A stretch of 24,905 nucleotides of DNA, from IMG/VR virus record IMGVR_UViG_3300044796_000665, positions 1 through 24,905 of that record; one strand, 5' to 3'. The number at the start of each line of letters is the position of its first letter. The stretch's first letter is position 1. Shown piece after piece: positions 728-23,029 of the stretch. Below the pieces are notes generated by a model. It ran no database searches. It was not told the DNA's origin and was given only the letters and a program-made list of their open reading frames with translations. This stretch comes from a virus. Position numbers and translations under genes: made by a program.

Positions 728-1171
728 ATGACCAAACCTTCCGCTTCACGCGGACTGGCTCGGCGAGCGCCGCCGGTTCTGCGCCATGACGACGTCGCCT
801 TGGCCAAGCTGGCTGAGCTCGGCGCCATCCAATGTACAGTGGCCGAAGCCGCCCAGATCTTCGGCGTGCCGGACAGCCGGATGACCAATTTCTTCGCCCG
901 TAACGGGCGCGCCCGTACGGCGTTCGAACAGGGGCGCGCCTTGGTCATCGAACAGCCGCGCATCACCCAATTCAAACTCGCCCAGACTAGTCCGACCATG
1001 GCTGTCTTCCTCGGCAAGCACTACCTCGGCCAAGCCGATCGGCGGGAGTGGGATCAAAGTGCCGCCATCGAAGCCTCCGAAGCCGCGCCAAGCGTCCGAA
1101 ATAAGCTCGCTGCCTTCGCAACCGCCCCACAGCCGGCAGGCGATCGCCACGGCGGGTCAAAGGTTCGATAA
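728..1171 (+). CDS. Terminase small subunit-like DNA-binding protein
   Basis: A 147-residue protein directly upstream of, and overlapping, the large terminase. In phage packaging the small subunit binds the packaging site and regulates the large-subunit motor. The segment 'GAIQCTVAEAAQIFGVP' reads as a helix-turn-helix, followed by the motif 'FLGKHYLGQ', which I know from small phage packaging proteins of this type. I prefer ATG 728, with GGAG at 712-715, over the in-frame ATG 683, which would leave a leader of only about ten bases after the predicted promoter; the 683 form adds 15 residues. The last 113 bp are also read in another frame as the start of the terminase large subunit, which may explain the low-complexity C-terminus. 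Identification rests on position and the HTH, so the family is not certain. Confidence 0.65.
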   Translation: MTKPSASRGLARRAPPVLRHDDVALAKLAELGAIQCTVAEAAQIFGVPDSRMTNFFARNGRARTAFEQGRALVIEQPRITQFKLAQTSPTMAVFLGKHYLGQADRREWDQSAAIEASEAAPSVRNKLAAFATAPQPAGDRHGGSKVR

Positions 1172-8300: not shown

Positions 8301-8798
8301 ATGCTCACCGTCACCTTGGCCGGCGCGGATACGCTAAACGAACGTCTGGAGGCCCTGCCCGCCGCCGTTCAGGCGGTGGTCCGCGCCAAGGCCGCCGACC
8401 TGGCCCAGCGCCTGCGCGCCCACGTGGTCAACGACAAGCTGTCGGGACATGTCCTGCGCTCCAGGACCGGCGCCCTGCGCGCCTCGATCGGCGCTGACGT
8501 TACCGTCGAGGGCGACACCGTCCAGGCGCGCGTCTTCTCGTCGGGCGAGGTCAAATACGCCCGCATCCAGGAATACGGCGGGCGTACGGGCGCGCACGAC
8601 ATCATCCCTAATAAGGCCAAGGCCCTGGCCTTCCTCATGGGCGGGCGAACCGTCTTCGCCGCCATCGTCCACCACCCGGGCTCGACGATTCCTGAACGGT
8701 CCTACTTGCGCTCGAGCCTGGCCGACATGGCGAGCGTCATCGCCGATGAACTCAAGGCCGCGGTCGCGGGCGCGCTCGCGTACGGAGAAGTTGAATGA
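8301..8798 (+). CDS. HK97 gp10-like head closure/tail-joining protein
   Basis: A 165-residue protein with the hallmarks of the HK97 gp10-like family: an N-terminal helical 'LNERLEALPAAVQAVVRAKAADLAQRLRA' region (partial read), 'RTGALRASI' (about 55-63), 'YARIQEYGGRTG' (about 90-101) and 'IPERSYLRSSLADM' near the C-terminus. These proteins sit at the head-tail interface or proximal tail. A GGAAAGG (8283-8289) precedes the ATG. The stop overlaps the next start (ATGA, 8795-8798), so the two are translationally coupled. Confidence 0.8.
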   Translation: MLTVTLAGADTLNERLEALPAAVQAVVRAKAADLAQRLRAHVVNDKLSGHVLRSRTGALRASIGADVTVEGDTVQARVFSSGEVKYARIQEYGGRTGAHDIIPNKAKALAFLMGGRTVFAAIVHHPGSTIPERSYLRSSLADMASVIADELKAAVAGALAYGEVE

Positions 8799-9235
8799 AC
8801 CCGCGCGAAGATATCTTCAACGCCCTGTTCGCCCTCACCGTCGGCCTGGCCTGGGATTCCCCGCCGCGGGGCCTGGCCTATCAGGCCCGCCGGGTGATGC
8901 TGTGGGACGATCTGCCGGCCCAGCCGGCGCTGTGCCAGGCCGAACAGGACGAGGACGTCGCCGAGGTGACCGGCCTGCCCTCGAAGACCACCTATTCGGC
9001 CAGCTGGCTGATCTATCACAATGTGGGCAAGGACCCCGCGGCCACGCCGGCTACCGAGACCAACCTGATCCTGGACGCGGTCCAGGCGCTGTTTCCATCC
9101 GGCGATCCGGATCAGGCGCAGACCCTCGGCGGTCTGGTCCACCACTGCTTTATCTCCGGCAAGATCTTCAAGGACCCGGGCGACCTCGACGGCCAGGCGC
9201 TGATCATCGTGCCGATCAAGATCCTCGTTCCGTGA
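8795..9235 (+). CDS. Tail terminator/completion protein (DUF3168-like)
   Basis: A 146-residue protein with the layout of DUF3168 tail completion proteins (functionally like lambda gpU): an N-terminal helix 'NPREDIFNALFALTVGLAWD', a beta-strand core around 'SASWLIYHNVGKD', the segment 'ETNLILDAVQALF' and a C-terminal strand 'ALIIVPIKILVP'. Such proteins cap the tail tube and fix its end to the head connector. The order gp10-like, terminator, tube is the usual one. The start overlaps the preceding stop by four bases. Confidence 0.7.
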   Translation: MNPREDIFNALFALTVGLAWDSPPRGLAYQARRVMLWDDLPAQPALCQAEQDEDVAEVTGLPSKTTYSASWLIYHNVGKDPAATPATETNLILDAVQALFPSGDPDQAQTLGGLVHHCFISGKIFKDPGDLDGQALIIVPIKILVP

Positions 9236-9259
9236 CCGCTGTAACCTCGGGAGGCCACC

Positions 9260-9442
9260 ATGGCCGATGACCCTGCCGCGCGGCCAGTTTCCGCGAATCT
9301 CGAGGCTCGGCTCATCGCCGCCATCCGCGCCTGGCGCGATGCCCACATCGCCAACAGCCCGATCGCGCGCGAGGTCGCGTGCTGGAACCATCTGCAATCG
9401 AAGCTCGATGACCTCGTCGCTTCCATCATGAGGGAATTCTGA
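9260..9442 (+). CDS. Small phage protein of unknown function (60 aa)
   Basis: A 60-residue, mostly helical protein ('ANLEARLIAAIRAWRDAHI', 'CWNHLQSKLDDLVASIM') with a good ribosome site (GGGAGG, about 9249-9254, before the ATG). It fills the gap between terminator and tube with almost no spare sequence, its stop ending one base before the tube start, and it shares the codon usage of its neighbours, so it is probably real. I do not recognise the family; a minor tail or assembly role is only a guess from position. Confidence 0.6.
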   Translation: MADDPAARPVSANLEARLIAAIRAWRDAHIANSPIAREVACWNHLQSKLDDLVASIMREF

Positions 9443-9443
9443 A

Positions 9444-10181
9444 ATGCCTCAGTCAGTTTTCGGGGTCGGCTTCCTTTTCGCCACCCCCGCCGGCGCCAAC
9501 GCTACGCCGACGCGCTTTGGCGCGCTGCAGGACGTGACCGTCGACTTCAGCTTCGACACCAAGCTCTTGTACGGCTCCAGCCAGTTCGCCCTCGAACAGG
9601 CGCGAGGAAAGGGAAAGATCGACATCAAGGCCGCCATCGGTCGGGTCGACCCCAACCTGTTCAACAACATCTTCTTCGGCCTATCCACCTCGGTCGGAGA
9701 AACGCTGAACTCCATCGACGAGACCGGCGTGATCACCGCCGGCGCGGTGACCGTCGCCAACGCCTCGACCTGGACGCAGGATCTGGGCGTCTACAATGTC
9801 GCCACCGGCCTCTACATGACGCGCGTGGCCTCGGCGCCGAGCGGCAATCAATATGCGGTCACCGGCGGCGCCTACACCTTCAACGCTTCGTTGAACGGCG
9901 ATGCGGTGCGGATAAGCTACGTCTACAGTTCGACGACCACCGGAACCCGGCTGGCCTACACCAACCAGCCGATGGGTTCGAACGCCATCTTCTCGATGAC
10001 CCTGGTCAATCAATTCGCCGGCGTGGGCGGCCGCAAGTCGCTGTTCATGAGCTTCCCGGCGGTCCAGGCCTCGAAACTGTCCATGCCCCTCAAGCTGGAT
10101 GACTTCACCCTCACCAGCCTGGACATGGGCGCCCAGGACGACGGCTCCGGCAATGTCTTCAGCTATTCGATGACCGGTTGA
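9444..10181 (+). CDS. Major tail tube protein
   Basis: A 245-residue, beta-rich protein with few charged residues, sited between the terminator and the tail assembly chaperones, the standard place for the tube subunit of siphoviruses. It starts 'MPQSVFGVGFLFATP' and includes 'LQDVTVDFSFDTKLLYGSSQ' and 'FSMTLVNQF', consistent with the two-sheet tube fold. A middle segment (about 80-170) rich in Thr/Ser/Ala ('ITAGAVTVANASTWTQDLGV') could be a surface-exposed addition. GAGGGA lies eight bases ahead of ATG 9444, inside the previous gene. The assignment rests on position, length and composition. Confidence 0.75.
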   Translation: MPQSVFGVGFLFATPAGANATPTRFGALQDVTVDFSFDTKLLYGSSQFALEQARGKGKIDIKAAIGRVDPNLFNNIFFGLSTSVGETLNSIDETGVITAGAVTVANASTWTQDLGVYNVATGLYMTRVASAPSGNQYAVTGGAYTFNASLNGDAVRISYVYSSTTTGTRLAYTNQPMGSNAIFSMTLVNQFAGVGGRKSLFMSFPAVQASKLSMPLKLDDFTLTSLDMGAQDDGSGNVFSYSMTG

Positions 10182-10192
10182 GGAGGCTTCGC

Positions 10193-10540
10193 ATGGCCCA
10201 AGTCACCATCGGCGGCGCGGCCATCGAGGTCGACCTGCCCAACTTCAAGGCGCTCAAGGCGGCTTGGCGCTACATCGCCGCCATCCAGGAGCAGACCGAT
10301 CCGATGGCGGCCGTCGACGCCATCCTGGGCGTCATCGCCGTCGGCGCGGTCGGCCAGACCCTGACGGTCGAGGAGCTCGAGCAAAGCCTGACGCCTCGCG
10401 AAATGGCGGGCCTTCGCCCCTTCATCAACGCCCTGATGATCGAGACCGGCCTCGCCGCCTCGCCGGAGGAAACCGCATCGGGGGAAGCCCCGCCGGCGGA
10501 GGGCGCGGCGAGCCCTTCGACGGAGACTTCGATAGCCTGA
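10193..10540 (+). CDS. Tail assembly chaperone (gpG-like, short form)
   Basis: A 115-residue protein just before the tape measure. In siphoviruses this is the tail assembly chaperone that coats the tape measure, usually made as a short form and a frameshifted long form. It opens with a small beta segment ('AQVTIGGAAIEVDLPNFKAL'), then helices ('AWRYIAAIQEQ', 'LTPREMAGLRPFINALMIE') and an acidic, low-complexity tail. ATG 10193 has a perfect AGGAGG (10181-10186) six bases upstream and is favoured over in-frame 10178, which lies ahead of that site. The tail overlaps an open -1 frame that continues to 10836. Confidence 0.75.
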   Translation: MAQVTIGGAAIEVDLPNFKALKAAWRYIAAIQEQTDPMAAVDAILGVIAVGAVGQTLTVEELEQSLTPREMAGLRPFINALMIETGLAASPEETASGEAPPAEGAASPSTETSIA

Positions 10541-10836
10541 TCGCCGAACTGGTCGCCGCCGGATGCGGGGGCGGGGACTGGGACCTGATCGAGACGCGCT
10601 GGAACCTGCATCGCTACGGCGCGATGCAGCGCCATTGGCTGCGCTACGGCCCGCCGACCTACGTCGCCGTGGCGCTCTATCTCGGGCTGAGCAAGCCCAA
10701 ACCGCCAGCTGAACATCAGCTGGTCGATCCCGCCGACCTGGCGAATTTCCTGCGCACGTTTCCCGGCCCCGTCGGCGCTCCCACCGGCGCGGCCTCGATG
10801 GAGCTGCCTCAATGTCCGACACCGCCCTTGAGGTGA
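10486..10836 (+). CDS. Tail assembly chaperone extension (gpT-like), probably reached by -1 frameshift
   Basis: This frame is open well before the short chaperone ends and continues to 10836, 25 bp into the tape measure. Its convincing part ('DFDSLIAELVAAG', 'DWDLIETRWNLHRYGAM', 'YVAVALYLGLSKPK') has the codon bias of a real gene, yet there is no start codon with a ribosome site before it; the first ATG (about 10623) would remove half of it. The simplest reading is a -1 slip from the short form, with G-GGG-GAA at 10480-10486 (in phase X-XXY-YYZ) the best candidate. The match to a consensus heptamer is imperfect because the A-site codon mispairs after slipping. The coordinates given are the extension only; the joined product would span 10193-10836. 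Confidence 0.6.
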   Translation, partial: SPAGGGRGEPFDGDFDSLIAELVAAGCGGGDWDLIETRWNLHRYGAMQRHWLRYGPPTYVAVALYLGLSKPKPPAEHQLVDPADLANFLRTFPGPVGAPTGAASMELPQCPTPPLR

Positions 10837-12041
10837 GATTCACCGCCAACACCGCCGCCGTCGGGACGGCGGTCGCGGCCATGCTGGCCAACATCAAGTC
10901 AGTCGCCGCCTCCGCCCAGACGCTGTCGGACTCGATGAAGACCACTGGAGAATCGGCCGCCTCCGCTTTCCGCCAAGCCGCGGCCGCCGCCAAGGAAGGC
11001 GCTGCCCAGCAGACCCAGGATGTCCGACAGGCCGATCGGGACGGTCTGATCTCGCACCAGCAGGCCCACGTCCAGATACTGGCGCTGGCCCAGCGGGAGC
11101 AGGATGTAGCCATCGACGCCGCCACGAAGATCGCGACTGAACGCGTCCGCGCGGACGCCTTGGCGCTGCAAGCGGCGGCGAGCGGCTCCGCCGAATACAT
11201 CCAGTTGAAAAAGGATGAACAGGCCGCTGCGGAACAGGCCCAGCGAGCCATCACCGCCGCCGTGCTCGCCGGCGATCGGGCGCGGTCGGACGAAAACCGG
11301 CGGGAGACCCAGCAGTACAAGCAGGCCTGGGACCAGTCGGCCGGCGCGGTGACGCGCGACTTCACACAGGGGTTGCTCCAGATGGCCGAGGGGACCAAGT
11401 CGTTCGGCCAGGTCATGGCCTCGATCGGCCAGCAGATTCTGAACAAGTTCGCCGATGTCACCGCCAAACTGGTCTCCGACTGGCTGTTCGCCGAGACCCG
11501 CAAGACCATCGCCACCGACGCCGGCGCGCTGGCGCGGACCAATGTCGAAGAGGTCGCCGCGACCCAGTCGCGCGCGGTTTCGGCAATGACGGCCGAGAAG
11601 CTGATCTTCAACGAGGCGCTGAAGGCGGCGGCGGCGGCCTACAGCGCCATGGCCGGCATCCCGATCATCGGCCCCATCCTGGGCGCCGCCGCGGCGACCG
11701 TCACCTTCGCCGCCGTCGAAGCCTACGGGAACATGGCTTCGGCGGCAGGGGGCTTTGACATCCCGGCCGGCGTCAATCCCCTGACCCAGTTGCACGCCAA
11801 CGAAATGGTGCTGCCGGCCTCGATCGCCAATCCGCTGCGCGGGATGCTGGCGGCGGCCAATTTTGCCGGATCCCCGGCGATGACCCTGAACGGCTCCGGC
11901 GGGGCCGGCGAGCAACACGTCCATCTGCACGTCCACGCCGTCGATGGCGCCAGCGTCCAGCGGCTGTTCGACAACCACGGCGACAAGCTGGTCAACGCCT
12001 TGAACAGCCGCCTTCGCGGCGGCGCGAAGCTGGGGGGGTGA
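10812..12041 (+). CDS. Tail tape measure / tail length protein (short)
   Basis: A 409-residue protein: a long Ala/Gln/Glu-rich helical N-terminal two-thirds ('LANIKSVAASAQTLSDSMK', 'AFRQAAAAAKEGAAQQTQ'), a hydrophobic, glycine-containing segment at about 279-306 ('GIPIIGPILGAAAATVTFAA') that could insert in a membrane during DNA entry, and a C-terminal part with 'GGFDIPAGVNPLTQLHANEM' that recurs at the end of many tape measures. It follows the chaperones, overlapping the extension by 25 bp. At the usual scaling of about 0.15 nm per residue it would give a tail of roughly 60 nm, short for a siphovirus. Alternatively it is a GTA gp11-like minor tail protein. Confidence 0.75.
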   Translation: MSDTALEVRFTANTAAVGTAVAAMLANIKSVAASAQTLSDSMKTTGESAASAFRQAAAAAKEGAAQQTQDVRQADRDGLISHQQAHVQILALAQREQDVAIDAATKIATERVRADALALQAAASGSAEYIQLKKDEQAAAEQAQRAITAAVLAGDRARSDENRRETQQYKQAWDQSAGAVTRDFTQGLLQMAEGTKSFGQVMASIGQQILNKFADVTAKLVSDWLFAETRKTIATDAGALARTNVEEVAATQSRAVSAMTAEKLIFNEALKAAAAAYSAMAGIPIIGPILGAAAATVTFAAVEAYGNMASAAGGFDIPAGVNPLTQLHANEMVLPASIANPLRGMLAAANFAGSPAMTLNGSGGAGEQHVHLHVHAVDGASVQRLFDNHGDKLVNALNSRLRGGAKLGG

Positions 12042-12044
12042 GTC

Positions 12045-12710
12045 TTGTCTGTCACGCCCTACATCCCGCCGGCGACGGTCACGTCGCTGCCCTCAGGCAT
12101 CTGGTTTGGCGCCGATGGACTTCCGGTGCTGCCTTACCTGCCCGGCCAGACACCGACCGTCGGCAAGGCTCCGCTGTGGTCGACCAAGGTCAAGCGCGCC
12201 GCGTCCGGCCGCGAACGCCGCACCGCCTTGTGGCCCTATCCCCTGTGGCAGTTCGAGCTGACCTACGAGGTTATCCGCCACAGGCCGTCCACGGACGAAC
12301 TCTTTACCTTGTGGGAGTTCTTCAACGTCATCCAGGGCCAGTACGCGCCCTGGCTGTTCGTCGATCCCACCGACTGCCAGATACTTTCGGCTTCTCCGCA
12401 GATCTTCGCGACCGGGGATGGAACGACCAGAGTTTTCCAACTGACGCGTTCGATCAATTCGTTCACCGAGCCGGTCTACGAGGTTTTCAACCCGGCCATC
12501 CTCGACAACGCCGCCGCCGCCGGCCCCTGCACGATCGGTCCGAACGGCCTCGTCACCTTCGCCACCGCGCCCGCGACCGGCCACACGCTGGCTTGGTACG
12601 GCTATTTCTACTTCGGCTGCCGCTTTCTTGAGGACGACCTGGCCTTCGAACAGATCGTCAGCCAGCTCTGGTCGGGCAAGTCGGTCAAGTTCACCAGTCT
12701 GAGGGCCTGA
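12045..12710 (+). CDS. DUF2460 tail-tip protein (GTA gp12-like, distal tail)
   Basis: A 221-residue protein of the DUF2460 type, known in GTAs as gp12, which forms the distal tail ring below the tube. The recognisable core is 'TALWPYPLWQFELTYEV', then 'LWEFFNVIQGQYAPWLFVDP' and the C-terminal 'FGCRFLEDDLAFEQI'. The start is a TTG at 12045, three bases after the tape measure stop, with a G-rich run just upstream; no ATG is available near the conserved N-terminus. It is followed by a TGATG overlap with the DUF2163 gene. Confidence 0.85.
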   Translation: MSVTPYIPPATVTSLPSGIWFGADGLPVLPYLPGQTPTVGKAPLWSTKVKRAASGRERRTALWPYPLWQFELTYEVIRHRPSTDELFTLWEFFNVIQGQYAPWLFVDPTDCQILSASPQIFATGDGTTRVFQLTRSINSFTEPVYEVFNPAILDNAAAAGPCTIGPNGLVTFATAPATGHTLAWYGYFYFGCRFLEDDLAFEQIVSQLWSGKSVKFTSLRA

Positions 12711-13600
12711 TGCTCACCCCGATCGACGCCGCCGGCCATCCCGGCGCCACCCTGGCCCTGCTCAACGGCGGGGCCGATTTCGTGATGGCCGATCTTTGGT
12801 CGATCACTCTCAACGGCGGGGCGGTCGTGCGTTGGCATGGCGCCGGCTTCAACGGCCCGCTCAGCTTCAATGGCCAGACCTGGCTCGCCGGCCCAACCAT
12901 CGAGCGCGGCAAGATCAGCGCCAAGCTCGGCCTGGAAGTCGCCACCCTGCAGGCCACCGTCACGGCCGCTCCCTCGGACCTGATCAACGGCGTTCCGGTG
13001 CTGCCCTTCGTGCGCGGCAATGGCCTGGACGGCGCCACCGTGGTTCTGCACCGCGCCTATTTGCCGGCCTGGGGCCAGCCTATCACCGGAGCGACCATCG
13101 CCTTCAGCGGCCGGGTGACCTCCCTGAAGAATCTGTCGCGCACCCAGTTCGAGCTGACCGTGTCGGCCTGGACGGTGCTCTTGAACGTCAACATGGGGCC
13201 GGACGTCTACCAGGCCGGCTGTCTCAACAGCCTCTTCGACGCCAATTGCACCCTGAACAAGGCCAGCTTCGCCTTCGCCGGAACGGTTACCGGCGGCGGA
13301 ACTCCCACCGCCTGCGCGACGACCCTAACCCAGGCCGACGGCTTCTTCACCCAAGGCCAGATCGTCTGGCTGACCGGCGCCAACGCCGGCCTGTCGCGGG
13401 CGGTCGCCACCTATGCAAACGCCGGCGGCGCCCTGACCTTCGCCTTTCCGCTGCCGAACGCGCCCGCGCCGGGAGACACATTCACCGCCTATCGCGGCTG
13501 CGCGCTGACGATGGCGGCCTGCTCTGCGTTCGGCAATCTGATCCACTTTCGAGGCCAGCCCTTTACCCCGCCGGCGGTGACCGGGGCGGTGGGCTCGTGA
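12710..13600 (+). CDS. DUF2163 tail-tip hub protein (GTA gp13-like) with conserved cysteines
   Basis: A 296-residue protein of the DUF2163/BR0599 type, the hub between distal tail and tip. The N-terminal half is beta-rich with 'YLPAWGQPITGATIAFSGRV'. The C-terminal half has Cys171 and Cys180 in 'AGCLNSLFDANC' and Cys264 and Cys271 in 'GCALTMAAC', followed by 'FGNLIHFRGQPFTP'. Two paired cysteines at this position recall the iron-sulfur-binding domain of lambda gpL, to which this family corresponds by position; Cys202 is extra and probably unrelated. ATG 12710 shares one base with the previous stop; the stop overlaps the next start (GTGA, 13597-13600). Confidence 0.85.
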   Translation: MLTPIDAAGHPGATLALLNGGADFVMADLWSITLNGGAVVRWHGAGFNGPLSFNGQTWLAGPTIERGKISAKLGLEVATLQATVTAAPSDLINGVPVLPFVRGNGLDGATVVLHRAYLPAWGQPITGATIAFSGRVTSLKNLSRTQFELTVSAWTVLLNVNMGPDVYQAGCLNSLFDANCTLNKASFAFAGTVTGGGTPTACATTLTQADGFFTQGQIVWLTGANAGLSRAVATYANAGGALTFAFPLPNAPAPGDTFTAYRGCALTMAACSAFGNLIHFRGQPFTPPAVTGAVGS

Positions 13601-14058
13601 GGCTGACCCCCGAGGCCGAGGAACGCGCCCTGGTGATCGCCGAGGCCCGGTCCTGGCTCGGCACGCCCTACCACCATCGCGCCTGCCTCAAGGGCGTCGG
13701 GGTGGACTGCGCCCAGCTACCCATCGGCGTCTGGTCGGCGGTCGGCCTGATCGACGGCTTCGACACTGGAGACTATCCCTCCGACTGGCATTTGCACCGC
13801 CAGGAGGAACGCTACGCCGGCGTCGTGCAGCGTTTCGCCGCCGAGATCGCGGCCGACGCGGCCCAGCCGGGCGAACTGATCCTGTTCAAGTTCGGCCGCG
13901 CCTTCAGCCACGGGGCGATCCTGGTGGCGCCCGGCGTGGTGGTGCACGCGGCGCGCAAGGACGGCTGCGTTTGCCTGGGCGATCTGGAGCGCGACGTCGA
14001 CCTGATCGACCGGCCGCGGCGGCATTTCTCATTCTGGGCGAAGCGCGATGGCCGGTAG
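13597..14058 (+). CDS. NlpC/P60 cell-wall peptidase of the tail tip (GTA gp14-like)
   Basis: A 153-residue cysteine peptidase that would cut peptide cross-links in peptidoglycan to let the tail through. The catalytic Cys38 lies in 'GVDCAQLPIGVW', His105 in 'FSHGAILV' and the third residue is likely His117 in 'VVVHAAR', the usual NlpC/P60 order. The start is GTG 13597, overlapping the DUF2163 stop, which gives 'MRLTPEAEERALVIAEARSW', the normal N-terminus of tip-associated members. There is no signal peptide, as expected for a virion component. It overlaps the tail-tip gene by 11 bp, so the four tip genes are translationally coupled. Confidence 0.9.
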   Translation: MRLTPEAEERALVIAEARSWLGTPYHHRACLKGVGVDCAQLPIGVWSAVGLIDGFDTGDYPSDWHLHRQEERYAGVVQRFAAEIAADAAQPGELILFKFGRAFSHGAILVAPGVVVHAARKDGCVCLGDLERDVDLIDRPRRHFSFWAKRDGR

Positions 14059-17000
14059 ATCAGCCTCGAACGCCATCACCCGCTATGCCGGGATCCAGGT
14101 GCAGACCTCCTCCCTCGGGCTGAACGTGCCGGTCGGCTGGGGGACTTTTCGCTGCAAGTGCAACCTGGTCGACTATCTGGATTTCAAGTCGAAGGCCGAC
14201 AAGGCGGCGGCGGGGAAGGGCGGATCGACCACCACCGGCTACAGCTACAGCGCCACGGTTATCCTGGCGCTGTGCGAGGGTCCGATCGACGGCGTCTCGA
14301 CGGTCTATGTCGACGGCAAGGTCTACACCAACGCCGCCAAGACCGCCCTGGTCCAGGCCAACCTCAACCTGAACACCGGAGCGATCGGCCAATCGGCCTG
14401 GTCCTATCTGACCTCGAACCACCCCGACCACGCCATCGGCTACAGCGGGCTGGCCATCGTCTACCAGTCCAACTATGCGCTCGACTCCAGCGCCACCACC
14501 CCGAACCACAGCTTCGAGGTGGCGCGTCTGGCCGGCTTCGGGGTCAGCGGAAGCAAGGACGCCGACCCCTCGCTGGTGGTCTCCGACTTCTTCGGCAACG
14601 CCCGCTACGGCGTGCCGTCCTGGGCGCCGGGCCTGCTGGGCGATCTGACGCAGTATCAGGACTATTGCCTGGCCGCCGGCCTGCTGGTCTCGCCGGTGAT
14701 CGATTCCCAGCGCAGCGCTTCGGACTTCCTGACCGAACTGCTCAGGGCGACCAACTCGACCTGCGTCTGGTCCGAGGGCCTGCTCAAGTTCATCCCCTAC
14801 GGCGACACCGCCCTGAGCGGGAACGGCAAGACCTACACGCCGGCCTCGACGCCGGTCTATTCGCTGAACGACGACGACTATATTCCCCAGTCCGAGGGCG
14901 ACGATCCCTTGACGGTCGACATCCAGGACCAGTCCGACGCCTACAACGTGGTCCAACTGGAATATCTTGACCGGACCAACCAGTACAACATGGCCATCGC
15001 CCTGGCCTCGGACGCGGCCAACGTGGCCCAGTACGGGATGCGGCGAAAGGACCCGGACACCGTCCATTGCATCGCCGCGCCCGCCGTCGCGGCGCTGTCG
15101 GCGCAGCTCTATCTGCAGCGCACCCTCTACATCCGCTCCCAGTTCAAGTTCACGGTAGGCTGGCAGTTCGCCCTGCTGGAGCCGGGCGACATCCTCGAGC
15201 TGACCGACACCGGGCTCGGCCTGAACGCCTATCCGGTCCGCATCATCCAGATCGACGACGACGAGGACGCCTGCCGCGCCATCATCGCCGAGGACTATCC
15301 TGTCGGAGTCGCCAACGCCCCGCTCTACGCCATGCAGAACTCAGCGGGTTACGCGGTCAACCAGGGGATCGATCCTGGGAGCGTCGAAACCAACCTGCTG
15401 CTCTATTCCGGCGATCCAACGCAGTCGGCCTGGTTCAAGGTCAACGCCACGGTCACCGGCGCGGCCTCGACCGACCAGTTCGGCCTGACGACGGCGGCCT
15501 ATATCGTCCCGACGGCCGTGAGCGGCGTCCACGCGATCGGGCAAGAGGTCGCCAACACCTTCGCGGGGCTGAACTACACCTACTCGGTCTGTCTTCAGAA
15601 GAGCGCCCACAAGATCGCCCGCGTGGAACTCGAGGACGGAACGAACGGCGTCATCATCGAGGTCGACCTGAACGCGGGGACCATCGTCACCCCCGGAACG
15701 GCCAGCGGGGACGCTGTCCTGGTCTCCGCGACCATGAACCCGACGCTCGTCTCCGGCATTTGGCGGGTGGCGATCACGGCGCAATTTCCCGGCGCCACGG
15801 CGCTCTACGGAATCGTCTTCGCCAACAGCGACGCCAACGCCAACATCTGGACCGGCGACGGGTCCAACGCCATCCTGGTTTCGCAACAACAGCTCTATCA
15901 GGGCCTGGCGGGGCGTCCCTACGCCGCCACGACATCGGCTATCTCCGGCCCCTACCTGTTCAACCCGCCGTCGGTCCTTTCGTCCAGCCTCGAGGTCTGG
16001 GCGGCGGTGGCCGGCGGTCCCAACTGGGGCGGCGCCAACGTCTGGGCCTCGATCGACGGGACCAACTACCAGCAGATCGGAACCATCGACGGGTCGGCCC
16101 GCTACGGGATCGCGACGGCCTCGTTCGCCAGCCACGCCGACCCGGACACGGCCGACACCCTGTCGGTTGACCTCGGGGCCTCGGCGGGCGCCCTGACCGG
16201 CGCATCGAGCGCCGACGCGGACAACGGGGCGACCCTTTGCCTGATCGACGGCGAGCTGGTCTGCTTCTCGACCGCGACCCTGACCAACCCGAGCCGCTAC
16301 AACCTGACCAGCTACATCCGCCGCGGCTACCTCAACAGCACCATCGCCGCCCACGCGGCCGGCGCGCCCTTCGTGCGGCTCGACGAGGCGATCTTCGACT
16401 TCCCCTATTTCGCCACCAACGCCGACCAGCCGGTCTACATCAAGTTCCAGAGCTTCAATCAATGGGGCCATGGCGTCCAGAGCCTGTCCGACTGCCTGGT
16501 CTACACCATCGTCCCGATCCCGCTCGGCGCCGCCGCCCCGTCGAGCGCGGCCTGGACGGCCGTCGGCACGACCCTGAGCAACGCCGGCCAGTCCATCCCG
16601 GCGATCGTCATCACCGGCGCCAGCGACAACCCCAGCGCCACCGCGATCGACTTCGAATACCGCGTCACGGGGACGACGATCTGGATCTCGGCGGGCATGG
16701 GCAACGCCAACGCGACATCCAAGATCATTGCCTCTGTCCAGTCGGGCCAGACCTACGACGTCTCGGTGGTCTACATCGTCGGCGACATCGTCTCGAACCG
16801 CGAGATCATCGCCAGCGCCATCACGGTCGGGGCTATCGCGACGGGGGGCGCCGTCGGTTCGAACCTGATCAATGACTCGTCGGCCGGCTCCGGCAAGACC
16901 GTCGTTCTGCCAGGCAGCGGCCACGTCGACATCATCCTGACCGGCATCGGCGGATCCGGAAACGGGGTGATGTCCGGAGGCCTCAAGGACGGCTTCACCA

Positions 17001-17419
17001 CCACCAACTACGGCGGCGGCGCGGGCGGGACGGTGGTGATCCATGGCTTCCCCGCCTCCGGTCAGACCCTGACCTACACCCTGCCGTCAGCGGTGGGTTC
17101 GGCGGCCACCTGCACGGGGACGGGGCTCAACATCACGGCCAACAGCGGAACCTCGGCCACCACCAGCGCCGAGGGCGCCGGCGGAACCGCGACCGTCACC
17201 ACCGCGACGGGGGCTTCGTCGACCAACGCCTACACCGGCCACAACGGCGGCCTGACCGACACCTGGGACGGCGGCGGCGCGGCCAATATCAGCGGCGCCT
17301 ACACCGACCAGACCACGGACGGGACCGGCGGGATCGCTCCCGGCGGAGGCGGCGCGGGCGCGCTCGGGGCCGTCCAGCCCGGCGCGGGCGCCTGCCTGCA
17401 GATCATCGCGAGGGCCTAG
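14048..17419 (+). CDS. gpJ-like tail-tip / host-recognition protein
   Basis: A 1123-residue protein at the place of GTA gp15 or lambda gpJ. The N-terminal half (about 1-445) is the hub-like part ('LNVPVGWGTFRCKCNLVDYL', 'GYSYSATVILALCEGPIDGV', 'WQFALLEPGDILEL'). About 446-632 looks like an inserted carbohydrate-binding jelly roll ('NLLLYSGDPTQSAWFKVNA', 'NYTYSVCLQK', 'LVSGIWRVAI'). About 633-820 returns to the gpJ-type pattern ('DGELVCFSTATL', 'IRRGYLNSTIAAHAAGAPFV'). About 825-930 is fibronectin III-like. About 945-1123 is Gly/Ser/Thr-rich, like a glycine-rich adhesin tip. Domain limits are estimates. The variable insert and C-terminus are the likely receptor-binding parts. Confidence 0.8.
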   Translation: MAGRSASNAITRYAGIQVQTSSLGLNVPVGWGTFRCKCNLVDYLDFKSKADKAAAGKGGSTTTGYSYSATVILALCEGPIDGVSTVYVDGKVYTNAAKTALVQANLNLNTGAIGQSAWSYLTSNHPDHAIGYSGLAIVYQSNYALDSSATTPNHSFEVARLAGFGVSGSKDADPSLVVSDFFGNARYGVPSWAPGLLGDLTQYQDYCLAAGLLVSPVIDSQRSASDFLTELLRATNSTCVWSEGLLKFIPYGDTALSGNGKTYTPASTPVYSLNDDDYIPQSEGDDPLTVDIQDQSDAYNVVQLEYLDRTNQYNMAIALASDAANVAQYGMRRKDPDTVHCIAAPAVAALSAQLYLQRTLYIRSQFKFTVGWQFALLEPGDILELTDTGLGLNAYPVRIIQIDDDEDACRAIIAEDYPVGVANAPLYAMQNSAGYAVNQGIDPGSVETNLLLYSGDPTQSAWFKVNATVTGAASTDQFGLTTAAYIVPTAVSGVHAIGQEVANTFAGLNYTYSVCLQKSAHKIARVELEDGTNGVIIEVDLNAGTIVTPGTASGDAVLVSATMNPTLVSGIWRVAITAQFPGATALYGIVFANSDANANIWTGDGSNAILVSQQQLYQGLAGRPYAATTSAISGPYLFNPPSVLSSSLEVWAAVAGGPNWGGANVWASIDGTNYQQIGTIDGSARYGIATASFASHADPDTADTLSVDLGASAGALTGASSADADNGATLCLIDGELVCFSTATLTNPSRYNLTSYIRRGYLNSTIAAHAAGAPFVRLDEAIFDFPYFATNADQPVYIKFQSFNQWGHGVQSLSDCLVYTIVPIPLGAAAPSSAAWTAVGTTLSNAGQSIPAIVITGASDNPSATAIDFEYRVTGTTIWISAGMGNANATSKIIASVQSGQTYDVSVVYIVGDIVSNREIIASAITVGAIATGGAVGSNLINDSSAGSGKTVVLPGSGHVDIILTGIGGSGNGVMSGGLKDGFTTTNYGGGAGGTVVIHGFPASGQTLTYTLPSAVGSAATCTGTGLNITANSGTSATTSAEGAGGTATVTTATGASSTNAYTGHNGGLTDTWDGGGAANISGAYTDQTTDGTGGIAPGGGGAGALGAVQPGAGACLQIIARA

Positions 17420-17974
17420 ATGCAGCGCGTGGACGATCCCGCCGACGTCGTGATGGACCCGGACGCCCATCCCTGGACCGTGCGGCTGAAATACACCGCC
17501 GTCGCCGAACTGCTGAGCGACTACCGCCAGTCCAACGCCATCATCGGGCGGCGCGCCTGCCCGGTGAGCGACTATCTCGCCGACCACCTGAACGACGACA
17601 TCACCGAGGTCGAGGCCTACGTCTACGCCCACCCCGAATGGGGCCCCGTCGCGATCTGCGAATCGATGCATCGGACCCTGCTGTTCAACAACGCCCAGAC
17701 GCACGAGCACGGCGAATTTCTCGCCGGCTGGGCTCAGCACTACCTCATGCTCAACCTGGTCAAGCACCACCCGTTCGAGCGCGCGCGCGGTCCGTTCAGC
17801 GAGATGCTCAAGCACCGCGACATGCGCTTCGCCAGCCCGGCGGCGGCCTATGTCGCCCTGGCCTACCTGAACGCCGGCCATCCCAACCCGCGCAAGTTCC
17901 TCGAAAAGCCCGAGGTCGCGGCCAAGTTCGCCGGCCTCGACGTATCCGCCTTCGCCGCGCCGGACTTCGACTAA
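17420..17974 (+). CDS. Phage-associated protein of unknown function (184 aa)
   Basis: A 184-residue soluble protein beginning at the base after the tail-tip stop, with GAGGG five bases upstream, so surely part of the tail operon. It is His- and aromatic-rich ('HPEWGPVAICESMHRTLLF', 'HEHGEFLAGWAQHYLMLNLV') and appears mainly alpha-helical, with no signal peptide or membrane segment. The C-terminal 'LNAGHPNPRKFLEKPEVA' is polar. I do not recognise the family. Its place between tip and fibre-like genes suggests a fibre assembly or tip-attachment role, but that is inference only. A terminator-like palindrome follows it. Confidence 0.75.
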   Translation: MQRVDDPADVVMDPDAHPWTVRLKYTAVAELLSDYRQSNAIIGRRACPVSDYLADHLNDDITEVEAYVYAHPEWGPVAICESMHRTLLFNNAQTHEHGEFLAGWAQHYLMLNLVKHHPFERARGPFSEMLKHRDMRFASPAAAYVALAYLNAGHPNPRKFLEKPEVAAKFAGLDVSAFAAPDFD

Positions 17975-18001
17975 CGCGAACCGCGTTCGCCAACCCTTCT
18001 C

Positions 18002-18060
18002 CGTCATCCCGGCCGAGGGCTCGCGTAGCGGGCCGTAGAGCCGGGATGACGATCTGTTTT
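18002..18060 (+). terminator. Dispersed palindrome with T-run, likely terminator
   Basis: CGTCATCCCGGC (18002-18013) pairs with GCCGGGATGACG (18040-18051), a perfect 12-pair stem with a 26-base GC-rich loop that can fold further. TTTT follows at 18057-18060. The element matches the intergenic palindromes common in alphaproteobacterial chromosomes. It would end or weaken transcription after the tail operon, before the exported fibre-like genes. Confidence 0.6.
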
Positions 18061-18093
18061 CAAACCGCGCACTCAACACTCAAGGAGCCACCG

Positions 18094-19209
18094 ATGAAAG
18101 TCATCACGCCCGCAATCGCGGCGCTGGCGCTCGCCTGGACCGGCGCCGTCCACGCCCAGAGCGCGCCCACCGTGGGCGCCTACCAGGTCCCCAGCGGCTC
18201 GAGCCAGATCCCTGCTCAGGGCGTCCAGATCATCGGGTATGACTCCGTCACGGGCGCCCTCTGCGTGATTGGCCAGACCGCCACCTGTTCGCTGCAGAGC
18301 TCGGGCGGCGGCGGCGGGGGAGGCGGAGCGGTCACCGCCGCCTCCGGCGCCTTCGCCCTCGGTTCCATCGTCGATCTCGGCACGGGCGCGAGCCCCGGCG
18401 CGAACACCGTCAACGGTTACCTGAAGACCATCGACACCACCCTCGGCTCGCCCTTCCAGGCCGGCGGCTCGATCGGCAACACCGCGTTCGGGATCACCGG
18501 TACGCTGCCCGCCTTCGCCTCCACGCCGACGGTCAACGCGGCGGAGAGCGGAACCTGGAACGTCGGGCTGTCGACGGGCTCCAACGCGATCGGTTCGATC
18601 ACCAACGCCAGTTTCGGGATCACCGGTACGCTGCCCGCCTTCGCGTCAACGCCGACCGTCAACGCGGCCCAGTCGGGCGCCTGGAACACCGGCGGTCTGA
18701 CCGGCGTCAACCAGTCCGGCTCCATCACGCGGATCGCCAACACCACCATCTACGCGGCCAACGAGCTGATCTGTCTCTACGCCTCGACCACGGCCTGCGC
18801 GCCGATCCAGGTCACGATCGCCGGGGCCAACGCCGCCACGGGCACCCTGGGGCGGGTGATGCTGGGCAAGACGGGCACGAGCCTGACGGGCGCGACCTTC
18901 ACCGTCTGGTTCTTCAGCGCCGCGCCGACCACGACCTCGATGTACGACCACACCGCCTATGTCGGCCCCTTCGCGGCGGACCTGCCGAACTATCTGGGCA
19001 GTTACACCTGCAACGCCATGCAGGCGACCAACGACGCGACCGCCCAGGCCTTCAGCGAATGCACGCCCACGGCCGGCCAGGGCTGGATGCAGTATCAGGC
19101 CCTGTCCGGCCACACCTATGTCGACGCCCTGATCACGGTCACTGGCGCCTACACCCCGATCTCGGGCGAGGTCTTCACGATCTACGCCAACAGCTTGCAG
19201 GACAAATAG
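18094..19209 (+). CDS. Fibre-like phage surface protein with Sec signal peptide
   Basis: A 371-residue protein with a clear signal peptide (Lys2, hydrophobic 4-18, cleavage after Ala21 in VHA|Q), a run of eight glycines (71-78), and two copies of a 'FGITGTLPAFASTPTVNAA' unit 42 residues apart; 32 bases are identical between the copies (18487-18518 and 18613-18644). The C-terminal ~150 residues ('TVWFFSAAPTTTSMYDHTAY', 'FAADLPNYLGSY') carry a pattern I know from phage virion proteins of many hosts. ATG 18094 has AAGGAG six bases upstream. A signal peptide on a virion-type protein is unusual: it may be exported by the lysogen, or processed for assembly at the envelope. The next gene, two bases downstream, has the same feature. 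Confidence 0.75.
   Translation: MKVITPAIAALALAWTGAVHAQSAPTVGAYQVPSGSSQIPAQGVQIIGYDSVTGALCVIGQTATCSLQSSGGGGGGGGAVTAASGAFALGSIVDLGTGASPGANTVNGYLKTIDTTLGSPFQAGGSIGNTAFGITGTLPAFASTPTVNAAESGTWNVGLSTGSNAIGSITNASFGITGTLPAFASTPTVNAAQSGAWNTGGLTGVNQSGSITRIANTTIYAANELICLYASTTACAPIQVTIAGANAATGTLGRVMLGKTGTSLTGATFTVWFFSAAPTTTSMYDHTAYVGPFAADLPNYLGSYTCNAMQATNDATAQAFSECTPTAGQGWMQYQALSGHTYVDALITVTGAYTPISGEVFTIYANSLQDK
18487..18644 (+). repeat. Two in-frame repeat units inside the fibre-like gene
   Basis: The 32-base block starting TTCGGGATCACCGG occurs identically at 18487-18518 and 18613-18644, 126 bp (42 codons) apart, and similarity continues for about 30 bases beyond each copy. The identity at DNA level, not only protein level, suggests a recent duplication or gene conversion and a site where repeat number could change by recombination. 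Confidence 0.85.
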
Positions 19210-19211
19210 CG

Positions 19212-20957
19212 ATGAAGCGCCGATCGATCCTGCTCGCCGCGCTGGCGGCCCTTGCCGCGCTCGCCGGCGCGGCCGACGCTATGACGCGTGCTCAGCGCGT
19301 CGGGGTGGTGATGCACAAGAAGGCGATCGTCGTCGCCTCCTACACGCCGGCCAGCGTCCACCTGGACGGCCAGCAGTCCTATCTCTCGACGCCCAACCCC
19401 TACACGGCGTCCCCGACGCCGATGAAGGTCAGCAGCACGACGGTCGCCGACACGTCGACCATGACAGTCAGCTACTGGCTCAAAGCCTTCCCAGCCTCAT
19501 CCTCGTCAGCCGGGACGGGCATCACCTATCTGAGCGGCTATGGAAGCGACATCGTGTCGTCGTCGCCGAACTCGACGGATGCGAGCACGGAAGTCATCCC
19601 TGGCAACGCGATGACTTACGACAACGCGTCCAGCAACTATGGCACGCTCAGGGCCAACTTCAACGACGATACGGGCGGCTCCGGTCACCAATGCCTTGCG
19701 ACGATCAGTAGTTTGTTGTCGGACGCGAACTGGCACCACATCCTCTATTCATTCGATGGGACCGTAAGCAGCACGACCAAGAGCCTCGCCATCTACGTCG
19801 ACGGCGTGTCGAAGATCACGACCTGCACCGGCCCAAGCACGGCCGCCTTTGTCGTCGGGCTGAGTCAGCGCGCCTGGATGGTGAAGGGCAATTCGGTCGG
19901 CCTTTTCAGCCCTGGCGCGGGCAATATCGACGTCGCGGACGTGTTCCTCGACGCGACGATATCCATCGTCTGCGACAGCAGTTCCAACATCACCGTGAAC
20001 AGCGTGTCCTATGCCTGCCCCGGCGGCCAGGGGACCATTCCGGCGGCCTTGCTGGCGAAGTTCTACAAGAGCGGGCCGGTCTATCTCGGCGCGAATGGCG
20101 CGGTCCCCCTTGGCCGCCAGCCTGAAATCTATCTCAGCGGCTCGGCGTCCGGCTTCCAGACCAACCTCGGGCAGGTCACCAACCTGACGACAGCCGGCAG
20201 CGCCTGGAACGCGCCCACCGGCCCGAACAGCATGCCGACCGCTCACCCCTATGTCCAATGGGCCACGGGGGCCAACGGCGCTGGAGGCCTGACCACGCTT
20301 TCGGCCTACGCCGTCAACCCGTCCAGCACGATCGCCGTCGGCGATTTGCTGATCACGACCCTGAAGCTCACGGACACCATGGGCGTGTCCAACCACTCCC
20401 CGGCGCCCCCGAGCGGTTTCACGCTTCTCGATGATCAGGAGAACGGCTCCTGCACGAATTCCGGCGACGCCATGGCGACCGCCTATCGTCTCGCCACCAG
20501 CGCGGACGTGTCGGGAACCGGCCAATACACCTGGACCTGGACGACGGCGGCCGGAAAGGGCTCGACGGTGATGATCGTCGATGTCCGGAACGCGAACCAG
20601 ACCACGCCGATCGACGCCCACGGAATCAGCGCGATCCAGGGATGTTCGGCCAACACGGCATCGGACGTCGCGCCCTCGGTATCGCCTTCGGCGACGAATG
20701 ACCTGCTGCTTTCCGTTTACGGCAACTACGGCAAGGAGACGACCTGGACCACGATCACCCAGCCGTCCGGGCAAACGCCCGCCGTCTCACTGACGGGCGT
20801 GACCCAATTTTCATCGATCGGGTTGACCGGCTTCTATGCGGGCCAGGTCGTCGCGTGGGAGAACCTGACTGCCTCGGGCGCGACCGGAACGCGGACGGCC
20901 ACTCTCAATGCGACCGACGCCGGCGTGGCCGCGAACATAGCGATCGCGCATCCATGA
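19212..20957 (+). CDS. Exported LamG-like / fibre-like protein
   Basis: A 581-residue protein with an N-terminal signal peptide (basic MKRR, hydrophobic Ala/Leu run 6-20, cleavage near Ala23). About 45-245 resembles a LamG/concanavalin A-like lectin fold: 'ASVHLDGQQSYLS', 'TMTVSYWLKAF', 'NWHHILYSFDG' and 'AIYVDGVSK' mark the typical strands. The region after about 345 ('FTLLDDQENGSC', 'AMATAYRLATSADVSGTGQ', 'VRNANQTTPIDAHG') resembles a second sandwich domain I have seen in phage and secreted proteins. The gene begins two bases after the previous stop, so both are co-transcribed. It is likely carbohydrate-binding; whether it is a virion protein or a lysogen surface protein cannot be told. Its end faces the methyltransferase, 16 bp away. 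Confidence 0.7.
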   Translation: MKRRSILLAALAALAALAGAADAMTRAQRVGVVMHKKAIVVASYTPASVHLDGQQSYLSTPNPYTASPTPMKVSSTTVADTSTMTVSYWLKAFPASSSSAGTGITYLSGYGSDIVSSSPNSTDASTEVIPGNAMTYDNASSNYGTLRANFNDDTGGSGHQCLATISSLLSDANWHHILYSFDGTVSSTTKSLAIYVDGVSKITTCTGPSTAAFVVGLSQRAWMVKGNSVGLFSPGAGNIDVADVFLDATISIVCDSSSNITVNSVSYACPGGQGTIPAALLAKFYKSGPVYLGANGAVPLGRQPEIYLSGSASGFQTNLGQVTNLTTAGSAWNAPTGPNSMPTAHPYVQWATGANGAGGLTTLSAYAVNPSSTIAVGDLLITTLKLTDTMGVSNHSPAPPSGFTLLDDQENGSCTNSGDAMATAYRLATSADVSGTGQYTWTWTTAAGKGSTVMIVDVRNANQTTPIDAHGISAIQGCSANTASDVAPSVSPSATNDLLLSVYGNYGKETTWTTITQPSGQTPAVSLTGVTQFSSIGLTGFYAGQVVAWENLTASGATGTRTATLNATDAGVAANIAIAHP

Positions 20958-20973
20958 ACGCCATCGAGGCAAA

Positions 20974-21828
20974 TCAGCCCGTCGCCTGCAGGACTTCGCC
21001 GCCGTTTCCGCCCGCCGTGACTCGGACGTTGGCCTCGGCGCCGGCCCGTGGTGGAAGCATTTCGCCCCTCGTGCCTTGCCAGATCACCACGCTGTCGTCG
21101 CGCCAGGCCGCAGCTTCCGCCTCAGCTTCATCGCAAGGATACTTCGCGGCGTGATAGCGAGAAAGAGCATCGCTGCGGTCGAAAATCTTGGCGTTGGCGG
21201 GGTTGTAGTAGATCAAGAAGACCTTGTTGCCAGATTTTTCTTGGTGTCTAGCGACCTTCGCCGCGACCTGTTTCATCAGCGGGGCGTAGAATGAGTTGTA
21301 GAGATAGATCACCACTAGGCCCGGCGGGATTTCGAAGTCGAGCACGTTGCCTTCGACGATCTCGATCGGCCTCCGCTCCGGATGCAGCGCACTGATGCGG
21401 GCGCCGTTGCGGCGCGCGATTTCGCAGAGGGCGGGCGATAGCTCAACTCCGACGATGCGGCGGAAGGGATATTCACTGGCCACGATGAGGGGGCGACCCT
21501 TGCCGCATCCGAAATCGACGAAGGATGCCCGGTCCAGATTCGGGATCGTCGCGAGCGCCTTGCGGATGATCGAGGGCTGCGATCCCACGTAGCCGAAGTT
21601 GTGCAAGTCGGCGCTTGAGTTGGTGCGCAGCGCGCTGGCCGAGATCACGCCGCCGGTCTCGATTCCGTAGAGCGCGTCTATAGGGTGTTGGTGGGCCACT
21701 CTTGGCTGAGGACTTGTCGAGGAACCCGTGGCAAATCGTGCGACCTTCCGAATCAAGGTCCGCATGGTTGTCCCTAATGGCTGGACGAAGAGAGCCCTCC
21801 TCGCCACGAACATCAATTTGGACATCAT
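20974..21828 (-). CDS. Class I SAM-dependent methyltransferase, cargo gene
   Basis: A 284-residue Rossmann-fold methyltransferase. Motif I is 'FVDFGCGKGRPLIVA' (about 103-117), followed by the acidic residue Glu129 in 'VGVELS' that binds the SAM ribose, 'VEGNVLDFEIP' as the motif II/III region and 'LYNSFYAPLMKQVAAKV' as motif IV. The substrate cannot be read; no DNA-methylase catalytic motif such as (D/N/S)PP(Y/F) is present, so a small molecule, lipid or protein is more likely than DNA. The start is uncertain: ATG 21828 is chosen, with a second ATG next to it, and GTG 21864 adds 12 basic residues; neither has a strong ribosome site. It is oriented against the late operon. Confidence 0.8.
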   Translation of the reverse strand: MMSKLMFVARRALFVQPLGTTMRTLIRKVARFATGSSTSPQPRVAHQHPIDALYGIETGGVISASALRTNSSADLHNFGYVGSQPSIIRKALATIPNLDRASFVDFGCGKGRPLIVASEYPFRRIVGVELSPALCEIARRNGARISALHPERRPIEIVEGNVLDFEIPPGLVVIYLYNSFYAPLMKQVAAKVARHQEKSGNKVFLIYYNPANAKIFDRSDALSRYHAAKYPCDEAEAEAAAWRDDSVVIWQGTRGEMLPPRAGAEANVRVTAGGNGGEVLQATG

Positions 21829-22015
21829 CAGGTCTCTGCCTGCGGCGACCTTTGCCGCCCGCACTTGAACCTACGGTCTCGGGTTGAGACCGGCAAGTCT
21901 AGCGACAGCCGTCCTAGTTGTCGCTCTGCGAACGTCGTTCGCCGCCTACCCCGAGGATTCCTATGGCCGCCCAACCGTCCGAGCCGGGGCCACCTGCGTC
22001 GTTTATAGGTCCGGG
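21829..22015. other. Gene-free gap upstream of the methyltransferase
   Basis: This gap holds the 5' region of the methyltransferase and the end of the decayed antitoxin remnant. I see no protein frame with family resemblance or start-site support, and no strong hairpin. The methyltransferase promoter should lie here or further upstream in the toxin-antitoxin region. Confidence 0.35.
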
Positions 22016-22252: not shown

Positions 22253-22552
22253 CTAAGCCGCCTCGAGCGCCCGTTTCACCGCTTCGGGCTCATGCTCGAT
22301 GATCTTCAACAAGATCCTGGCGCTAGCTTCAGGCTGCTTGCGCTTTTGCTCCCAGTCGCGCACCGCGCCGGTAGAGAAGCCGAACCGCGCGGCGAACTCG
22401 GGCTGGGTGAGCCCGAGCTTGGTCCGGATCGCCTTCACATCCACGACTTCGGGAACGTGGACGCGGTAGGCAGCCGGATCGGCGCGTCCCTCGACGAACG
22501 CTAGCGCGTCTTCCAGCCCGGCCATGACCCGTTCGAAGTTCTTCTTGCTCAT
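22253..22552 (-). CDS. HTH antitoxin of a type II toxin-antitoxin pair (NadS/HigA-like)
   Basis: A 99-residue DNA-binding antitoxin. The N-terminal 'NFERVMAGLEDALAFVEG' is the usual toxin-contact part, followed by the link 'VPEVVDVKAIRTKLGLTQPE' and the Xre-type helix-turn-helix 'FAARFGFSTGAVRDWEQ', then 'ARILLKIIEHEPEAVKRAL'. It would neutralise the RelE-type toxin and repress the operon. ATG 22552 has GAAGGA seven bases upstream, and lies 11 bases after the toxin stop. Toxin-first order is typical for HigBA/RelE-NadS pairs. The frame is intact, with the residues expected for the HTH. Confidence 0.9.
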   Translation of the reverse strand: MSKKNFERVMAGLEDALAFVEGRADPAAYRVHVPEVVDVKAIRTKLGLTQPEFAARFGFSTGAVRDWEQKRKQPEASARILLKIIEHEPEAVKRALEAA

Positions 22553-22563
22553 CGTCCAATCCT

Positions 22564-22923
22564 TCAACCCATGGCCCGAGGGCCAAGGCTCTCAACCAGC
22601 CGGCCAGTCATTCTCGCCATCGCGCTCACTTCCGCACCGCTAAAATTTCCGCGCGTACCCTTGTAGAGCACGGTAATGAGGAACACCGGCGCGTGATCGC
22701 CGGCGAAATAGGTCACTACCCGATAGCCGCCTGACTTGCCGCGACCACGACCGGCGATCCGGACCTTGCGGCAGCCACCCGAACCGACGATCAGATCGCC
22801 CGCTTCGGGGTTAGCCGCGATCGTGTTCACCACCGCCGCCCTCTCGTCGACCGTCATGCCTTCGGTCTTGGCGGCGGCGAGATAGGCGCGGGTTTCGACG
22901 ACCGTGTGCACGAGCGCCTTCAT
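22564..22923 (-). CDS. RelE/HigB-family toxin
   Basis: A 119-residue toxin of the RelE-like superfamily, expected to be an mRNA-cleaving ribosome-dependent RNase that arrests growth when the antitoxin is lost. The family pattern is 'GDLIVGSGGCRKVRIAGRGR', 'GKSGGYRVVTYFAG' and 'PVFLITVLYKGTRGNFSGAE', including the basic and aromatic residues of the active cleft. The start is ATG 22923; an upstream in-frame start at 22947 would add eight arginine-rich residues and run through the operator-like palindrome. The pair is intact and lies between the methyltransferase and lysis cassette, oriented away from the latter. It may stabilise the prophage or act in defence; both are inference. Confidence 0.9.
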   Translation of the reverse strand: MKALVHTVVETRAYLAAAKTEGMTVDERAAVVNTIAANPEAGDLIVGSGGCRKVRIAGRGRGKSGGYRVVTYFAGDHAPVFLITVLYKGTRGNFSGAEVSAMARMTGRLVESLGPRAMG

Positions 22924-22937
22924 ACGGCGACGCCGTA
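22923..22937. promoter_or_regulatory. Palindrome at the toxin start, candidate autoregulatory operator
   Basis: TACGGCG (22923-22929), one base, CGCCGTA (22931-22937): a perfect seven-base inverted repeat touching the toxin start codon. This is the place where toxin-antitoxin complexes usually bind their own promoter. A second perfect palindrome, TGACGTCA (22961-22968), lies 24 bp further upstream. Together they would allow cooperative repression, though binding is inferred. Confidence 0.45.
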
Positions 22938-23029
22938 GACTATGCAAGCCAGAAGTGCGGTGACGTCATGATATCTGGCGGCGCCACGCGCCAACGGCGT
23001 CCGCCTCTGCCTCAACCCCGGAGACTCCC

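Follow-up and report, generated by a model that had tools for sequence, protein, structure and literature searches.

Gene layout of the window

The window, i.e. the whole 24,905-base stretch of DNA analysed here, is a linear virus record of a tailed phage. It carries GTA-type tail assembly genes together with a tape measure and a tail tip gene (Table 1). The order past the tip is a gene for a 184-aa protein, two genes that we call A and B, genes on the minus strand and the lysis end. B adjoins a methyltransferase gene on the opposite strand. Also on the minus strand lies a likely toxin-antitoxin pair, composed of a RelE-like gene (PF06296, 1.1e-6) and an HTH / MqsA-like antitoxin gene. Within the head module, the large terminase and the portal-position gene flank an oppositely oriented short-chain dehydrogenase gene (adh_short, 6.7e-49), which is unusual cargo.

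Table 1. Features of the window and their positions
Feature	Position	Strand	Remarks
120-aa gene	1-363	+	Ahead of the terminase gene; predicted signal peptide
Large terminase	1059-2474		
Short-chain dehydrogenase	2596-3474	-	
Capsid-position gene	6089-7621		
Tape measure	10812-12041		
Tail tip protein	14048-17419	+	GTA-type; domains Phage-tail_3 and Rcc01698_C; variable Gly-rich C-terminus
184-aa protein	17420-17974	+	No signal peptide
Inverted repeat CGTCATCCCGGC...GCCGGGATGACG	18002-18051		Strong; between the 184-aa gene and A
Gene A	18094-19209	+	371 aa; ATG; RBS
A, predicted Sec signal peptide MKVITPAIAALALAWTGAVHA	18094-18156	+	Cleavage A21/Q22; mature start QSAPT
A, mature N-terminal module	18157-18300	+	~48-50 aa; cysteine pair C57/C65
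A, two tandem 126-nt repeats (GSIGNTAFGITGTLPAFASTPTVN type)	18465-18716	+	
A, C-terminal domain	18715-19206	+	Four cysteines (227, 235, 306, 323)
Gene B	19212-20957	+	581 aa; ATG; RBS; two bases from A
B, predicted signal peptide MKRRSILLAALAALAALAGAADA	19212-19280	+	Mature start MTRAQ
Methyltransferase gene	20974-21864	-	
Likely toxin-antitoxin pair	22253-22947	-	

The Gly-rich C-terminus of the tail tip (residues 830-1123) is highly variable among phages whose tips are 71-86% identical over the first 450 residues. It is alike (66-74%) in the window and in the related locus L006, and A and B are also common to both. With a variable Gly-rich C-terminus of its own, the tip can serve as the main receptor binder and is likely to be the primary one. 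In another relative, L003, the tip is split over two frames (8435-13093), which is either an assembly error or real; the related L002 has a single gene of 1552 aa. The 184-aa protein gave no Pfam or PHROG match. Its homologues in L006, L007, L011 and L018 either follow the tail tip or lie between genes with signal peptides. The 119-nt gap before A, which contains the inverted repeat, has a folding energy of -47.7 kcal/mol (z -2.8), and a 12-mer of this repeat occurs in single copies in L002, L003, L009 and L020.

Predicted signal peptides and domains of A and B

Signal peptides were scored by our own fixed rule. Three of the 28 genes in the window were positive, namely A, B and the 120-aa gene ahead of the terminase, which is unrelated to them. 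When 4,808 internal 60-mers were used as decoys, 2.1% passed the rule. By this rule, both A (score 11.94) and B (14.11) show the pattern of a Sec/SPase I signal peptide with n-, h- and c-region and an AxA-type site, the predicted cleavage following AGA or ADA, and for each protein ~1% of shuffles of the first 40 residues reached the same score. The initial annotation had reported Sec signal peptides on two adjacent genes; both genes are real, and the rule, the decoys and the shuffles all agree with that report. The predicted route of B is Sec, and its twin arginine makes export by Tat possible as well.

A is composed of a signal peptide, a module common to relatives, a Gly-rich linker, two 42-aa repeats and a C-terminal phage fibre-type domain (residues ~208-371). 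The signal peptide of the A type is kept in L006, L002, L021 and L004:13594. The N-terminal module follows directly after the cleavage site also in L006, L004:13594 and L021, and partly in L002. A weak match to an Aphanizomenon phage protein covers residues 107-190 and extends into the repeat region. For the C-terminal domain, two homologues with 30-33% identity (L201/L202) were found in a genome of the same order as Rhodoblastus. One of them adjoins a DUF2793 fibre-type gene, and the DUF2793 protein also matches tail-fibre PHROGs. The earlier assignment of a virion-type C-terminus to A is supported by this fibre-type cassette and by the phage match of residues 107-190.

Mature A has six cysteines. 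All four that lie in the C-terminal domain are conserved in L004:18095, whereas the L201/L202 homologues, which have no signal peptide, have no cysteine in this domain. Homologues without signal peptides had been named beforehand as evidence that would speak against export. They exist for this domain of A, but, being free of cysteines, they support rather than refute the export of the window version.

Past its signal peptide, B is predicted to consist of a LamG / concanavalin A-like region (residues ~44-320) and a second beta-rich region that extends to the end and is common to L006. Mature B also has six cysteines. B matches L060, a protein that carries Laminin_G_3 (PF13385) at 9e-46, so that the LamG-like domain ascribed to B is supported indirectly, by way of this homologue; a profile match to Laminin_G on B itself was absent. 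Neither A nor B matched a Pfam, PHROG or PDB entry. Single-sequence searches revealed no relatives of either protein among viral contigs, and direct searches yielded no plasmid match for A and no phage match for B.

Signal-peptide genes downstream of the tail tip in related phages

Because searches with A and B alone found almost no relatives, the tail tip was used as the search anchor. The resulting set contained twenty close loci (tips 66-86% identical) and two distant ones, and genes were called with a simple caller of our own. The initial annotation had suggested looking for the gene pair at other tail operons. In 12 of the 15 distinct phages with closely related tips (window included), one to five signal-peptide genes were located just past the tip or the adjacent small genes, and the idea that the pair is unique to the phage of the window was rejected. 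L004 has five such genes in a row. One phage (L015-L017) has none after the tip, and the contigs L010 and L014 end early, with no signal-peptide gene within their length. Over all genes, 13 of 219 upstream of the tip were positive and 40 of 128 downstream, the latter count taking in lysis lipoproteins and spanins, compared with ~6% of shuffled N-termini (first version of the rule). The recurrence of predicted signal peptides at this position in 12 of the 15 phages is more than chance.

Among phages with closely similar tips, the bodies of these proteins are largely unrelated and comprise A-type, LamG-like, GDSL esterase, beta-helix and fibre-type modules. The sequences of the signal peptides diverge between relatives while their pattern is kept. 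Motifs of fibre-type N-termini after the cleavage site are common to L007, L018 and L012, and likewise to L018:12960 and L019. Other members of the group match tail, tail-fibre, lipase and pectin-lyase PHROGs as well as GDSL, pectate-lyase-like and beta-helix Pfam families. The sequences support a grouping of A and B with other phage proteins that are built of tail-fibre and glycan-recognition modules and carry signal peptides. Their bodies differ between close relatives in the manner of host-recognition modules. Genes of the Acyl_transf_3 type follow the signal-peptide genes in L003, L009, L012 and L020.

More distant, prophage-like loci in Hyphomicrobiales (Rhodoblastus, Xanthobacteraceae) have the same trait, and fibre-type genes without signal peptide lie beside it. 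The named genomes with relatives are mostly Hyphomicrobiales. Among 48 further loci in which three or more genes lay downstream, 24 had a large signal-peptide protein. The controls Brevundimonas phage Polewnik, Acinetobacter 5W and Effie, Pseudomonas KT1 and the Acidaminococcus loci were without such genes; in KT1, a 789-aa gene without signal peptide follows the tip.

Cysteine parity of the mature proteins

An even number of cysteines has been used as a criterion for DsbA substrates (PMC7678975); even parity in periplasmic proteins is a tendency and not a strict requirement. In the clade of the window, all of the 20 complete, non-redundant mature proteins were even when cleavage sites were set by hand (19/19 of those with any cysteine), compared with 41 of 73 upstream genes (56%). 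Their cysteine content was 1.61%, against 0.79% upstream. Applied blindly to a set that includes the Hyphomicrobiales loci, the rule gave 29/33 even, versus 28/78 for genes downstream that lack the signal peptide and 102/225 for genes upstream. Of the four odd cases, two were spanin-type genes, and the others were a false positive and a misplaced cleavage site. Rule errors set aside on inspection were the spanin-type genes in L006 and L020, fibres starting with MSVQVKRRR, and the misplaced cleavage sites in L037:12989 and L132:15697.

As a replicate, 133 new loci were found with other tail tips and treated by the same rule. When proteins were grouped into families of at least 200 aa, with length and false-positive filters that were picked after the raw list had been seen, 23 of 24 families in the discovery set were even versus 35/69 (p = 3e-5). 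The raw list of family representatives gave 22/30 with signal peptide and 36/81 downstream without. The new families of the replicate were even in 8 of 13 cases (9/13 with a single cleavage site shifted) versus 31/59 (p = 0.39), and showed no cysteine enrichment. Both sets combined yielded 31/37 versus 66/128 (p = 3e-4). That parity is even in all relatives was rejected on the replicate families, whose result makes the signal clade-weighted. We conclude that the parity signal is strong in the clade of the window and in the relatives closest to it, and becomes weak at greater distance.

Predicted time of expression

In the relatives, the signal-peptide genes start ~5-65 nt past the tail genes or overlap them. 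GC3 is 92.5% in A and 84.9% in B, compared with 91.2% in the tail-tip gene, and a consensus scan of positions 17300-21200 found no sigma-70-like promoter. The spacing in the relatives, the tip-like codon bias and the negative promoter scan together favour late, lytic expression. The possibility that A and B are recent foreign cargo was rejected, since their codon bias matches that of the backbone. In the initial annotation, the two proteins had been proposed to be exported by the lysogen. The export part of this proposal is supported by the recurring signal peptides and the even cysteine numbers; the lysogen part finds no specific support, as the late-type spacing, the codon bias and the negative promoter scan favour lytic expression.

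Interpretation of the probably exported proteins

In all likelihood, A and B are exported with formation of disulfides, as judged from their predicted signal peptides and cysteines. The even cysteine numbers of the mature proteins in the clade are expected for folding in an oxidising periplasm. The explanation that we prefer overall, to which we assign about equal weight for and against, is that A and B are exported, fibre-derived proteins that would bind or modify glycans and are made late together with the tail operon. Their action on envelope glycans, the function that fits best by analogy, is proposed tentatively. A and B would be produced late in the lytic cycle along with the tail operon and would cross the inner membrane by Sec, with Tat as a possibility for B. 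The signal peptides would then be removed and disulfides formed in the periplasm. Proteins that mature there would not be built into virions in the cytoplasm. In the periplasm and, after lysis, outside it, they might bind or modify envelope glycans of the producer, of debris and of neighbouring cells, A and B acting as lectin-like binders and their relatives as esterases or lyases. As an outcome, progeny may not be trapped on spent receptors, or the entry of rivals may be reduced. Late co-expression with the tail, together with a tip that may be the main receptor binder, favours this reading of exported, glycan-acting proteins. The variable C-terminus of the tip and the fibre-type genes without signal peptide in distant relatives also mean that proteins of the A/B type need not be the sole receptor binders. 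The Acyl_transf_3 genes near the signal-peptide genes of four relatives also count in its favour. Several points count against our preferred explanation. Sec or Tat alone does not take a protein to the cell surface. The fibre-type N-terminal modules found right after the cleavage site would fit docking onto virions equally well. Moreover, the weak replicate of the parity test and the phage that is free of such genes (L015-L017) have to be set against it.

The main alternative, which we rate as rather unlikely, is that A and B are virion fibres matured in the periplasm, i.e. exported, disulfide-bonded receptor binders that dock onto tail tips once lysis mixes periplasm and virions. The genes occupy the fibre slot between the tail tip and the lysis genes, and the combination of a common ~50-aa module directly past the cleavage site with differing C-termini is the classical layout of a fibre. 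The fibre-type N-terminal motifs shared past the cleavage site (L007, L018 and L012; L018:12960 and L019), the bodies that match tail-fibre families, and the joint occurrence of the tip C-terminus, the 184-aa gene, A and B in the window and L006 point in the same direction. Assembly after dilution by lysis, however, would be inefficient, one phage does without such genes, the tip has a variable C-terminus of its own, and in several distant relatives there are separate genes of the fibre type that lack a signal peptide. No published precedent was found in the open-access literature. In its general form, this alternative would amount to a split-compartment tail assembly, in which part of the receptor-binding apparatus of tailed phages of Alphaproteobacteria would pass through Sec, fold with disulfides in the periplasm and join the virions only after lysis; we consider this doubtful. 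Lysogenic conversion, in which a prophage would express and export A and B to alter adhesion or exclude other phages, is improbable, and a dedicated lysogen role has little support. It could draw on Lom, a positional analogue with a signal peptide between the tail spike and fibre genes of lambda (PMC12309495), on Cor and Llp, which inactivate receptors (PMC9586334, PMC11436027), and on the nearby acyltransferase genes in relatives and the methyltransferase gene beside B, albeit on the other strand. There is, however, no promoter near A in the scanned region and little room for one in the relatives, and A and B share the codon bias of the backbone. Any separate expression of A owing to the strong inverted repeat in front of it would be putative. 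Superinfection exclusion by A and B, as raised in the initial annotation, is possible.

That the hydrophobic N-termini stay uncleaved and serve cytoplasmic virion proteins as anchors or for trimerisation is very improbable. The signal peptides were predicted by a home-made rule and cysteine parity was weak in the replicate set, both of which leave room for such segments. They would account poorly for the AxA sites, the even cysteine counts, the cysteine-free homologues without signal peptide, and signal-peptide sequences that diverge while their pattern stays.

Comparison with known systems

The production and assembly of tail fibres are generally placed in the cytoplasm. Proteins of the fibre type that very probably mature outside this compartment, in which virions are built, are unexpected and so far unexplained. 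Export-signalled fibre-type proteins with paired cysteines at a fixed site in many related phages would point to an unrecognised class of secreted phage glycan binders or to a new assembly route. For annotators, they are a warning against the default label 'virion fibre' for such genes. Our search of the open-access literature found no description of exported fibre-type phage proteins as a class.

Several known proteins share single traits with A and B, and two of them, Llp and WceF, are precedents for the preferred explanation. Lom of lambda has a signal peptide, and its gene lies between those of the tail spike and the tail fibre (PMC12309495), which is the same kind of gene neighbourhood. 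However, Lom forms a beta-barrel in the outer membrane and is expressed by the lysogen, whereas A and B are long, fibre- or lectin-like, have cysteine pairs and look late-expressed. Llp of T5 is periplasmic and closes the receptor, with a Cys11-Cys58 disulfide (PMC9586334). Llp and Cor resemble A and B in that they are phage proteins exported to the periplasm, as is predicted for A and B, but they are small lipoproteins, while A and B have type I sites, no lipobox, several domains and 371 and 581 aa. The endolysin Lys44 of phage fOg44 has a cleaved Sec signal peptide (PMC6116005); unlike A and B, it is a peptidoglycan hydrolase of the lysis cassette and is not fibre-like.

WceF of Pantoea stewartii is a trimeric, tailspike-like beta-helix glycanase with an export signal (PMC7949094). 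It is the product of a bacterial exopolysaccharide gene, is exported by Tat and is not a phage protein; the sequences of A and B give no sign of a beta-helix, whereas those of some relatives do. One domain of the Rhodoblastus signal-peptide protein L037:16303 recurs in fibres of cyanophage WH11-B and of ctEw122, and the GDSL proteins of Lyrsu01 and REC1 likewise have domains homologous to exported proteins of the relatives. The two fibres, with odd cysteine counts of 1 and 3, are a matched contrast in favour of export. All four proteins differ from their exported counterparts in having no signal peptide, and their cysteine counts are 1, 3, 3 and 5.
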